Source: an uncultured bacterium
GTDB lineage: Bacteria; CALINM01
Direction of reading: 5' to 3'
NCBI GenBank assembly: GCA_938045315.1
Contig: CALINM010000032.1
Location: 1 to 24,174 of the forward strand
DNA: 24,174 nucleotides
How positions within the stretch are numbered: position 1 is the stretch's first letter; each line of letters begins with the position of its first letter. Of the stretch, positions 9,068 to 24,174 are shown piece after piece. A program made the translations under genes and the position numbers. The notes beneath the pieces are model-generated. The model saw only the letters and a list, made by a program, of their open reading frames with translations. It was not told where the DNA came from and ran no database searches.

Positions 9068-11048
<1,981 letters not shown>

Positions 11049-17511: not shown

Positions 17512-17964
17512 ATGGAGAAAGCTCTTATAACTGGCATTACAGGACAGGATGGTGCATATTTTGATGAGCTTTTATTATCAAAGGACTGTGAAGTACAGGG
17601 CGCAAAAAGAAGGATTTCATTATTTTATTCTGAAAGAATCGATCATTTACATAAAGATTCTCATAAATTCAAGACAAACCTCTGTTTAAACTATGGGAAT
17701 TTAACAGATAGTTTAAATTTAACAAAAATTGATCAAAAAATTCAATATGATGAAATATATAATTTAGAAGCTCACTCACGCGTAGCAGGCAGTATGGAAC
17801 AACATGAATATACAGCAAACTATAATGGTATTGGAACTTTAAAAGTGTGTGGGGTACAAAGACTAAAAAGCATAAAAAATAAAGTTAGAATAAATCAAGC
17901 TTTTCCATCGGGACCATTTGGCAAAATCCAGAAGATACCACTTAAAAGAATTTTTTGGAATTAA
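17512..17964 (+). pseudogene. gmd: Truncated, degenerate GDP-mannose 4,6-dehydratase (Gmd) relic
   Basis: The 150-residue ORF aligns by eye with the first part of Gmd (about 340 residues in the family), which makes GDP-4-keto-6-deoxymannose. Preserved are ALITGITGQDGAY with the Rossmann glycines 8, 11 and 14, the RIDHLHKD segment and the YNLEAHSRV and YTANYNGIGTL regions. The usual NLAAQSHV reads NLEAHSRV, and the active-site STSELYG region reads FPSGPFG. The YxxxK catalytic pair and the whole substrate domain are lost, as the frame stops at 17962. It is probably inactive. The start follows rfbD by 17 bases without a good ribosome site. Confidence 0.8.
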
Positions 17965-19737: not shown

Positions 19738-19763
19738 TTTAATAAAAAAAATAGGAGGTGTTT

Positions 19764-20987
19764 ATGAAGACTTATTTCTTAATTTTAGCGATTTTATTAT
19801 TTAGCTTCAGCTTTTCCTATGGAAAGAAAAGTTCATGTGTTACATGTCATACTGATGAAGCAATATTAAAGAAGCTTGTGAAAGTACCAGAACTAGGAAA
19901 TGCTGAAGGAGAGGGCTGAGCTGGAGCTCCACCGTCAGTTAAGGCGGATGAATACTACAAAGCTTTTTTAGTAGATAAAAATTTAATAGGTAAAGATGTA
20001 CATTTAAGTATTAATTGTACTGAATGTCACAAGGGGGATGATAAGAAAGATAAAAAAGAAGAGGCGCACTTAAATCTGAACAAAAGACCATCTGATAATA
20101 TAGATTTATGTGCTAGATGTCACAAAGATATTGCTAGAAATTATAAAGTTTCTCTTCACTATATGCCCTATGGACTAAAAAATGTATTTGCTGAGAGATT
20201 ATCAGCAAAGGAGAAAAAAATATTTGAAGAGAAAGTTTTTGAAAAATCATGCAGAAGTTGTCATGCAAGCTGTGGTGATTGTCATGTAAAATCGCCTGTA
20301 GTGGGTGGTGTAAATTTAGGTCTAATAAAGGGGCATAAGTTTATTAAAAGAGATGAGTCAAAAACCTGTGCTCTATGTCACGGTGGGAGAGTTTATCCAG
20401 AATATACAGGCGAATATAATGGTATAAGCGATGTTCATTATCAAAAGGGTATGATGTGTATGGATTGTCACTCAATAAAAGAAATACATGGTGATGGTAC
20501 TCCACAGTTAGCAAGGAAGTTATTGGAGTATAAAAACACATGCACAAAATGTCATAAACCTGGGTCTGAGAAAACAGATAAAGCTAAAGAGGCACATCGA
20601 ATACACGATGAAGGAAAGGTAAGCTGCTTTGCATGTCATGTAGGAGGTGAGTATAGGAACTGTTATAATTGTCACGTAGGCGAAGGGTCAACTTCAAAAC
20701 CGGGTTTTATATTAGGGCGCAATCCTAGAGCGAAAAATCAGTTAACCACTTTAAGAATAGTGCCTACTGTTCGTGATACATTTAAAAAGGTTGGCATAAA
20801 AATGGAGAATTTTGATAAACTTCCAAACTATTGGGACAGTGCTGTTCACAATATCAAAAAGAGAACAGACAGAACTAGAAACTGTGATACATGTCACACG
20901 GAGAAAAAAAATTTTCTTAAAAAAGAAGATTTGATCCCCAATGGTTCACGAGCTAATGAAGAGCTTATTTTCGAATTTAAAAAATAA
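19764..20987 (+). CDS. Exported 11-haem cytochrome c, probable selenoprotein (TGA at codon 52)
   Basis: A single frame of 407 codons runs from ATG 19764 (AGGAGG at 19753) to TAA 20985, interrupted only by TGA at 19917-19919. Residues 1-20 form a signal peptide (KT, then a hydrophobic stretch). Eleven CxxCH haem sites begin at residues 25, 85, 116, 163, 170, 202, 232, 260, 288, 300 and 374; those at 163 and 170 are only two residues apart. The TGA stands in GEG-x-AGAPPSVKADEYY, between haems 1 and 2, and is followed by a bacterial SECIS-like hairpin, so I read it as selenocysteine 52. Gene callers would start at ATG 20163 and lose the signal peptide and three haems. Role: periplasmic electron transfer or reduction; substrate unknown. 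Alternative: a nonsense mutation or sequence error. Confidence 0.75.
19917..19947 (+). promoter_or_regulatory. Candidate UGA selenocysteine codon plus bacterial SECIS hairpin
   Basis: After UGA at 19917-19919, the arms 19932-19936 (CCGUC) and 19943-19947 (GGCGG) form a 5-bp stem around the 6-base loop AGUUAA (19937-19942). The loop starts 17 bases after the UGA, and its second base is G. This is the same spacing and loop size as in E. coli fdhF (loop AGGUCU), the best-known SelB-binding hairpin, and fits the general rule of a loop G within the first two positions. The bulged U of the E. coli stem is not seen. A 10-bp palindrome, TGGAGCTCCA, lies at 19922-19931 in between and could form a competing fold. 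Confidence 0.6.
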
Positions 20988-21001: not shown

Positions 21002-21904
21002 ATGGAAAAAGCAAAAAAAATTCTCGTTGGATTAGTTCTCTCAATTATTTTTACCGTATTTTCTTATGCTGACGAATTCAGTTACATAATTTCCACAGAA
21101 TGGTTGGAAAAAAACTTAAATAATAGTGATCTTGTAATTATCGACATAAGAAAAGCAGACGTTTACAAAGCAAAACACATTCCAAATTCCATAAATGTAT
21201 TATACAGTGCTTGGGCGATTGAAAAATCTGGTAGGAAAAACGAACTACCAGAAGAAGATGATCTACAAGATTTAATCACCAGTGCAGGGATTAATGATAA
21301 ATCTTTAATTGTGATAGTTGGAAACTCAGACAATATAACAGAATTAGTTAACATGACAAGAGTAGCATGGACTTTATATTATGCTGGTCTAAATAAAGTT
21401 GCTGTTCTTGATGGTGGATTTACTAAATGGGAAAAAGAAGGCAGGCCAACTACCACAGAGATCAAAAAAGTAAAACCTGGCAATTTCAAAATTAAGCTTA
21501 ATCGAAATATTTATGCAGATAAAGATTATGTAAAAAGTGCTATTGGAAAAAGCACAATCGTAGATACAAGGATGCCAGACTTTTTCTTTGGCGTTTCAAA
21601 ACTTGATTTTATTGATAGAGCAGGTCACATTTCAGGAGCAGTTAATCTCCCCTCTGCATGGATATTTACTAAAGATGGCACTTATAAATCAATACAAGAG
21701 CTTGAAGCTATTGCACAGGGTGTTGTAGGCACTGATAAAAATAAAGAGATAATAACTTACTGTGATACAGGAAGACTTTCTTCTGGATGGTGGTTTGTTT
21801 TAACCAAGATTCTAGGCTACAAAAACGTTAAAATGTATGATGGCTCAACGGAAGACTGGGCTAAAGACACTACCATGCCAATGTCAAAATACACCTGGAA
21901 GTAA
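21002..21904 (+). CDS. Exported two-domain rhodanese (sulfurtransferase)
   Basis: The 300-residue protein has a signal peptide (KAKK, hydrophobic core, SYA cleavage before residue 24), so it is periplasmic. Domain 1 (about 27-150) has the rhodanese fold, with VIIDIRKADVYKAKHIPNS and VLDGGFTKWEKEGRP, but no cysteine at the active-site position (VGNSD). Domain 2 (about 165-295) has IVDTR, RAGHISGAVNLP and the active loop CDTGRLSS with Cys254, the only cysteine in the protein. It should carry sulfane sulfur as a persulfide. The loop differs from the CRKGVT or CGSGVT of classic thiosulfate or mercaptopyruvate transferases. It begins 14 bases after the cytochrome behind AGGAGG, so the two are co-transcribed. 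Confidence 0.9.
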   Translation: MEKAKKILVGLVLSIIFTVFSYADEFSYIISTEWLEKNLNNSDLVIIDIRKADVYKAKHIPNSINVLYSAWAIEKSGRKNELPEEDDLQDLITSAGINDKSLIVIVGNSDNITELVNMTRVAWTLYYAGLNKVAVLDGGFTKWEKEGRPTTTEIKKVKPGNFKIKLNRNIYADKDYVKSAIGKSTIVDTRMPDFFFGVSKLDFIDRAGHISGAVNLPSAWIFTKDGTYKSIQELEAIAQGVVGTDKNKEIITYCDTGRLSSGWWFVLTKILGYKNVKMYDGSTEDWAKDTTMPMSKYTWK

Positions 21905-23346: not shown

Positions 23347-24174
23347 TTAGTAAAGCTTGTTTATTAATTCTATTAGTTCTTTTTCAAGTTTAGTATTTGG
23401 GTGCTGTTTTTTTGATATAAAATGCAAAACAGGAGGATTTTTTTCTTTAACAGATTTGAAAATATTGTCGAATATTTTTATGACCCCTTCTGGATTATTA
23501 CAAAAATCTTCATACTTAATTTTTCTTACCCTTTCTTTTGATAATTTTTCAATATTTTCATTGATACATTCCGTTATGTCTTTTATTTGATGGAAAATCT
23601 GTTCTGGAACAGATAAATTTTTTATTTGTTCATAATTTCTAGGCTTTACAGAAAACCATAAATTGTAGTCGCCATGAGTTAATTTTCGTGCTCTTAATAT
23701 GGAAAGTGCAACATCTTCCACATTTCTCTCCACCACTAAAAAATAGCTTTTAGGGAAAATTTTTGATAAAGCATCCATATGGAGAGAGTTTCTAACATTT
23801 TTATTTACAAAGGGCACATCACCAAAAATTTTTTGAACACAAGAAACAAGCTTATAAAGGCTTCTTCTTTTAACTTCATCAATATCCTCGTAATTTTGAT
23901 ACTTATCGGGCTCAAAAAAAAATTGCCAGATTCTGCCAGCTTCTCTTGGAGCCATGGGACCTGCAATTCTTCCAAAGTTACTCTTAAAATCGGAAATATA
24001 GTGTTTTCTAAATTTTTTTTGTAGGAAAATAGTAAGACAGGGGGCATAAGGTCTATTTCCAGCCCCATTAGTAAAATATGCTACATGAAATCTATGAATA
24101 ATATATTGGTATACCAGTGTAGCACCAGATCGAGGTAGCCCCACCATGAAAATTTGCGGGCTTTTTGGGCTATC
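23347..24174 (-). CDS. Sulfotransferase family protein, N-terminus outside window
   Basis: The minus-strand frame is open from the window edge to TAA at 23349-23347, giving 275 residues; the first visible residues, SPKSPQIF, precede the ATG at 24147, so the true start is probably beyond the window. The PAPS 5'-phosphosulfate loop VGLPRSGATLVYQ lies at the start, and the 3'-phosphate motif appears as FLVVERNVEDVALSILRARK in the middle. A C-terminal KIKYEDFCNNPEGVIKIFDN matches the usual end of the fold. Such enzymes transfer sulfate from PAPS to sugars or other hydroxyl groups; the acceptor is unknown, and nearby glycan genes make a surface polysaccharide plausible. Confidence 0.85.
   Translation of the reverse strand, partial: DSPKSPQIFMVGLPRSGATLVYQYIIHRFHVAYFTNGAGNRPYAPCLTIFLQKKFRKHYISDFKSNFGRIAGPMAPREAGRIWQFFFEPDKYQNYEDIDEVKRRSLYKLVSCVQKIFGDVPFVNKNVRNSLHMDALSKIFPKSYFLVVERNVEDVALSILRARKLTHGDYNLWFSVKPRNYEQIKNLSVPEQIFHQIKDITECINENIEKLSKERVRKIKYEDFCNNPEGVIKIFDNIFKSVKEKNPPVLHFISKKQHPNTKLEKELIELINKLY

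Follow-up and report, generated by a model that had tools for sequence, protein, structure and literature searches.

The window analysed in this work is a stretch of 24,174 nucleotides from an uncultured bacterium (GTDB lineage Bacteria; CALINM01), and one of its genes, encoding an exported multihaem c-type cytochrome, is crossed by an in-frame TGA codon. Selenocysteine (Sec) is a rare selenium amino acid and a costly residue. The locus raises two questions, namely, whether this TGA is read as Sec and what a selenol might do in a protein carrying eleven haems.

Reading frame of the cytochrome gene

Direct translation of the 407-codon frame at 19764-20987 gave a single in-frame TGA. The signal peptide, the ribosome site and the unshifted frame of 407 residues running through TGA codon 52, all described in an initial annotation of this DNA, were confirmed by the sequence:

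19753..19758, + strand: ribosome-binding site AGGAGG (sequence)
19764..20987, + strand: gene of the Sec-containing 11-haem cytochrome c, 407 amino acids with TGA taken as Sec (frame reading and relatives)
19764..19823 (end approximate), + strand: signal peptide MKTYFLILAILLFSFSFSYG (sequence)
19917..19919, + strand: TGA codon 52, selenocysteine in the motif GEG-U-AG (TGA aligned in 53 distinct sequences and kept in 50 of 51 unselected ones)

A standard ORF caller recognized only 20163-20987 (274 amino acids), in agreement with the earlier statement that ordinary annotation would start at 20163 and miss the first third of the gene. Codons 1-51, compared with those of L009 (80% identical), differ by 15, 12, and 27 changes at codon positions 1, 2, and 3, respectively; this third-position excess, together with an invariant haem motif, indicates that the part preceding the TGA is translated and constrained. 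In codons 53-133 the differences from the closest relative are likewise concentrated at third positions and, since family-invariant haem motifs are also found there, the same holds for the whole region upstream of 20163. Moreover, TGA ends four of the 32 listed genes of the window, which implies that it still works as a stop codon for them and that no general recoding has occurred.

Conservation of the TGA codon and selenocysteine machinery

A scan of genome contigs retrieved twelve relatives, all of which (12/12) have a TGA at the same place (GEGuAGAPP or near). A wider, unselected scan covered 395 genomes of the phylum to which a Syntrophaceae relative belongs, and the TGA played no part in their choice. 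A match at E 1e-15 was found in 55 of the 395, most of them with the full-length Sec form, and exactly one in-frame TGA is present in 50 of the 51 matches covering the Sec column, the remaining one having none. Furthermore, the TGA was read directly at a GEGu(A/G)G-type motif in 53 distinct sequences, where it occupies a single alignment column lying 26 to 42 residues past the first haem cysteine; these sequences were picked by a TGA-containing pattern, so that 50/51 is the less biased figure. The codon is kept down to about 30% identity among relatives.

No Cys form at the Sec column was found among the relatives examined (51 unselected and 53 aligned). The sole exception, L096, has a Tyr in this column, keeps the architecture and is fused to two rhodanese domains; its genome has SelB despite the Tyr form, so that some forms of the protein can do without Sec.

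The host genome harbors selA, selB, and selD as well as the tRNA-Sec gene (selC, anticodon TCA), and selB was found in 19 of 20 family-bearing genomes. The host selD (L039, G000:C10) also contains a single in-frame TGA, like genes for Sec-type SelD.

The proposal of Sec in an 11-haem c-type cytochrome is borne out by the TGA kept in 50/51 homologues and by the presence of the sel genes. The two checks suggested with it, on the residue of homologues at that column (TGA in 50/51, no Cys, one Tyr) and on selA, selB, selC, and selD (all present), point the same way, and the Sec motif, which in the window protein is placed in a GEG-x-AGAPP insert between haems 1 and 2, was recovered as a GEGu(A/G)G-type motif in the 53 aligned sequences. 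A sense codon at a resequenced locus had been named as a refutation; the same TGA occurs in independent assemblies of relatives, which argues against a sequencing error. On these sequence grounds, TGA codon 52 almost certainly encodes Sec. An ordinary stop, whether it marks a pseudogene, stems from faulty sequencing or ends a short peptide ahead of a 274-residue cytochrome, agrees with the ORF caller's start at 20163 and has a negligible probability, being ruled out by the TGA shared with 50/51 independent relatives from independent assemblies, by the frame kept on both sides, by the constraint on codons 1-51 and 53-133, and by the complete Sec machinery.

A SECIS-like hairpin downstream of the TGA

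The following structure lies after the TGA:

19932..19947, + strand: SECIS-like hairpin of 5 pairs (19932-19936 with 19943-19947), loop AGTTAA (folding and relatives)

A SECIS-like hairpin at the canonical distance had been claimed from the window alone. Its position holds, since the hairpin begins 13-15 bases past the TGA, the bacterial SECIS distance, and this position is conserved in the family; the window stem taken by itself is not significant (z -0.79 for the single-sequence folding energy of 59 nt). In relatives the hairpin reaches up to 7 pairs, in columns equal to 19930-19949. All of the tested family hairpins (54/54) are more stable than synonymous resamplings, with a mean folding z of -2.29 in the window's subgroup and -2.83 in the distant set, these 54 sequences being related and hence not independent tests. 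In the distant subgroup (14 members), changes on both sides affect five of eight pairs, and the covariation was 0.415 vs. 0.171 in shuffles (sd 0.030, 0/500), and no slid control exceeded 0.148; some distant members have Glu and Ala codons swapped between the stem sides. Covariation is weak in the window's own subgroup (28 closer members). A search of Rfam at low threshold gave nothing but two chance matches.

Haem motifs and the surroundings of the selenocysteine

Of the eleven CxxCH motifs of the protein, only one precedes the TGA, the other ten being located after it. The initial annotation had counted three and eight, probably by splitting the gene at ATG 20163, which three motifs precede. 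The motifs are as follows:

19836..19850, + strand: haem 1 CVTCH, codons 25-29, sole haem motif before the TGA (invariant in the family alignment)
20016..20030, + strand: haem 2 CTECH (motif and family alignment)
20109..20123, + strand: haem 3 CARCH, pairing with haem 1 of octahaem tetrathionate reductase (profile/global alignment)
20250..20264, + strand: haem 4 CRSCH, pairing with haem 2 of octahaem tetrathionate reductase (profile/global alignment)
20271..20285, + strand: haem 5 CGDCH (family alignment)
20367..20381, + strand: haem 6 CALCH (family alignment)
20457..20471, + strand: haem 7 CMDCH (family alignment)
20541..20555, + strand: haem 8 CTKCH (family alignment)
20625..20639, + strand: haem 9 CFACH (family alignment)
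20661..20675, + strand: haem 10 CYNCH, without counterpart in the octahaem family (family and global alignment)
20883..20897, + strand: haem 11 CDTCH (family alignment)

All 22 cysteines of the window protein lie within CxxCH motifs and thus act as haem ligands, and the family alignment contains no conserved Cys outside them. The selenol is therefore left without a conserved internal thiol with which to form a Se-S bond. The same alignment has nine conserved His beyond the eleven proximal ones, and two haems are therefore without an evident His as sixth ligand, a pattern that is compatible with, and only suggestive of, a chalcogenolate axial ligand.

Relationship with octahaem tetrathionate reductase

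The family profile matched that of octahaem tetrathionate reductase with hhalign (E values of 7e-15 and 3e-15), and a forced global alignment paired haems 3-9 and 11 with the eight haems of the octahaem family. Two AlphaFold models were obtained, with a pLDDT of 80 and 85 (about 50 in the loop around Sec, which is poorly modelled); compared with the structure 1SP3, they gave Z 8.5 over 248 residues (rmsd 4.3) and Z 9.7 over 268 residues (rmsd 4.4), the next-best rows having Z 2.6 and 4.3. With Foldseek alone, neither model had a PDB match below 0.001, 1SP3 being seen only by VIA realignment; the PDB sequence search with the single window protein gave no match, and TIGR04315 (cut-off 375 bits) did not match the window protein and matched five of 48 family members weakly.

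According to these data, the window protein shares with octahaem tetrathionate reductase (TIGR04315, 1SP3) a homologous eight-haem core, corresponding to its haems 3-9 and 11, and differs from it by three extra haems (1, 2, and 10), by the rhodanese partner and by the Sec, which an N-terminal extension carries and which the core alignment does not include. Some TIGR04315 members also have a Sec, placed between their haems 1 and 2 (NNFuI). The two positions being different, Sec has entered the octahaem fold at two sequence positions. In the sampled phylum, TIGR04315 proteins with Sec (NNFuI; L138, L142, L143) and with Cys (NNFCI; L136, L139, L146) are both numerous. Haem 2 of octahaem tetrathionate reductase, the counterpart of window haem 4, is the active-site haem of that enzyme; the Lys motif belonging to it (VKHGDLD region) is not evident in the aligned region, where the alignment is uncertain, and the same substrate therefore cannot be assumed.

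Comparison with other multihaem and sulfur-handling cytochromes

ExtKL/MccSep (NF040886, GSU2937-2936) resembles the window protein in being a c-type cytochrome that is exported, binds several haems and has a single Sec. The two differ in haem number and Sec position: ExtKL has five haems and a Sec after haem 5, in AGHxIPDGuPTPNR, whereas the window protein has eleven and a Sec between haems 1 and 2. The profiles of the two families have only 23 columns in common, around one haem motif. NF040886 (cut-off 250 bits) did not match the window gene, and no ExtKL over the cut-off was found in the host genome; the profile, the haem count and the Sec position rule out membership of the window gene in ExtKL. 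The PDB entries named MccSep (9WT8-9WTC, including a U325A mutant) correspond to ExtKL by sequence. A TGA-free ExtKL paralogue was observed in a tandem pair (L134), with Ser-Val (AGHAIPDSVSSN) replacing Gly-Sec, and similar TGA-free matches occur in G097:C12.

The similarity of the window cytochrome to ExtN/ExtM is weak and far below the curated cut-offs. Hypothetical selenoprotein DG (NF049953), whose motif GUxG looks similar, did not match the window gene. No full-length NCBIfam model reached its cut-off for the window protein, and plasmid records gave no match.

A mechanistic analogy only, and not one of sequence, can be drawn with TsdA and SoxAX, in which a chalcogen side chain beside a haem acts on sulfane sulfur; these are dihaem-type cytochromes with a Cys, and in TsdA the haem-ligating Cys forms an S-thiosulfonate with the substrate (PMC4423706). 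Among established chemistries, that of TsdA comes nearest to the one considered here.

The rhodanese partner and the gene neighbourhood

The gene directly downstream of the cytochrome encodes an exported rhodanese:

21002..21904, + strand: exported tandem rhodanese, thiosulfate sulfurtransferase-like (two PF00581 stretches; PDB 1UAR, E 3e-36)
21761..21763, + strand: codon of Cys254 of the rhodanese, in the loop YCDTGR (Cys invariant in 9/9 compared)

Like the thiosulfate sulfurtransferase 1UAR and ExtH, this protein is a tandem rhodanese and has a loop with the active-site Cys; the loop pattern is CD(T/S)G(R/K), its Cys being invariant in the nine sequences compared. ExtH (NF040901) matches it at 1.1e-19, although the score (70.8 of 200 bits) is under the cut-off.

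A rhodanese is adjacent or fused to the cytochrome at 52 of the 53 family loci with enough flank to be testable: it is directly downstream at 49 (including L104 and L076, whose frames overlap the cytochrome end), upstream at one (L080) and fused at two (L096 and L103); at the last one (L100) no rhodanese was found within 987 bases. Single-chain cytochrome-rhodanese fusions were observed in L096, L103, and L106, with varying domain order.

At Syntrophales loci the genes farther on often include those of a 7-haem protein, of another rhodanese and of a 9-haem protein having a b-type domain, and at two loci NrfD and a TtrB/DsrO-like Fe-S protein are found upstream. These neighbours suggest that the electrons come from quinol.

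A family member is immediately preceded by an octahaem gene of TIGR04315 that lacks a TGA (G430:C136:322-1641 and L082). As for the other genes of the window, a sulfotransferase-like gene is located at 23347-24147 on the minus strand, and a related gene flanks the cytochrome in L009; the adenylate kinase gene at 10401-11048 has an in-frame TAA at 10686-10688, its frame being intact elsewhere, which reflects either an error of assembly or a broken copy; and a short GDP-mannose dehydratase-like frame (17512-17964, 150 amino acids) is, to judge by its sequence, apparently decayed and probably a pseudogene remnant.

Possible function of the selenocysteine

We propose that the cytochrome may be a periplasmic multihaem reductase in which the selenol binds or accepts sulfur (or selenium) together with a rhodanese partner, a statement to which, mechanism included, we assign an even chance. 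The two genes form an exported unit made of the Sec52 11-haem cytochrome and the tandem rhodanese, with UGA almost certainly read as Sec by means of SelB and the SECIS. The octahaem-like core is complemented by an N-terminal two-haem segment, carrying Sec on a glycine-rich loop, and by the extra haem 10. A rhodanese persulfide, or a sulfur oxyanion directly, would give a Se-S adduct on the lone selenol; alternatively, the selenol might leave the haem iron to bind the substrate, as does the haem-ligating Cys of TsdA. The adduct would then be reduced by the haem chain, fed by quinol through other cytochromes. Among possible substrates, sulfane-sulfur compounds (thiosulfate, polysulfide, tetrathionate) would come first and selenite a close second. 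The gene and its partner, the conserved TGA and hairpin, the Sec machinery and the relationship with the octahaem family are observed; the substrate, the direction and the role of Sec as ligand or acceptor are those that we infer.

A substrate-binding or haem-ligating selenol had been inferred in the initial annotation; this idea is favoured by the lack of non-haem Cys, the nine spare His and the rhodanese partner. In a more specific and only tentative form, the Sec52 selenolate might coordinate a c-type haem axially, or take over sulfane sulfur from the rhodanese, in one active site with an eleven-haem wire. If true, the protein would be a respiratory selenolate-haem enzyme for sulfur (or selenium).

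A selenite/tellurite reduction system parallel to the Geobacter ext genes, with the rhodanese handling selenium and the Sec cytochrome supplying electrons, appears rather doubtful. It accords with the ExtH-like rhodanese (NF040901, 1.1e-19), with the weak likeness of the cytochrome to ExtN/ExtM, with the occurrence of the Sec cytochrome ExtKL in the same ext cluster as the ExtH rhodanese, and with the impaired selenite and tellurite reduction that follows extI deletion (PMC5877670). However, the host has no ExtKL over the cut-off, the similarities are far under the curated cut-offs, the window rhodanese is nearer to ordinary thiosulfate/mercaptopyruvate sulfurtransferases, and the part played by ExtKL itself in selenite reduction has been called preliminary (PMC5877670).

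The nearly absolute conservation of Sec, with no Cys form despite its cost, and the near-obligatory rhodanese link speak for selenol chemistry, and they make it distinctly unlikely that Sec is protective or structural (resistance to over-oxidation, metal binding) in a plain electron conduit, even though most multihaem cytochromes with a low mass per haem serve to carry electrons (PMC7096707) and one natural homologue (L096) has Tyr at the Sec position.

Finally, the pair might work in the oxidative direction, oxidising thiosulfate or sulfide like TsdA/SoxAX and passing electrons into the haem chain. Thiosulfate oxidation by TsdA and SoxA does involve a Cys that ligates a haem (PMC4423706), but the named relatives belong to anaerobic lineages (Syntrophales and other deltaproteobacterial MAGs) and the nearby quinone-side modules are of the kind found with reductases, which makes this direction very unlikely.

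Novelty and significance

Multihaem cytochrome selenoproteins, namely, ExtKL and the Sec forms of TIGR04315, are already known; in a 2026 review of prokaryotic selenoproteins, the CxxCH-rich ones are only ExtKL, the octahaem TTR-family and the GSU2204-family (PMC13188914). What appears to be new, judging from that review and from the model libraries searched, is the Sec position, the haem count and the rhodanese partner of the window family. Paper searches for an earlier description of the family with its rhodanese, covering mostly literature outside subscription, turned up nothing beyond the ext cluster and the 2026 review.

The window gene belongs to a widespread selenoprotein family that lies outside the curated annotation models searched and is shortened by a third by a standard ORF caller. 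Its near-obligatory link to a rhodanese offers a testable lead to the role of selenium in multihaem cytochromes. Together with the fixed Sec position, this link suggests that anaerobic sulfur (or selenium) chemistry includes a selenium-dependent step not yet described.
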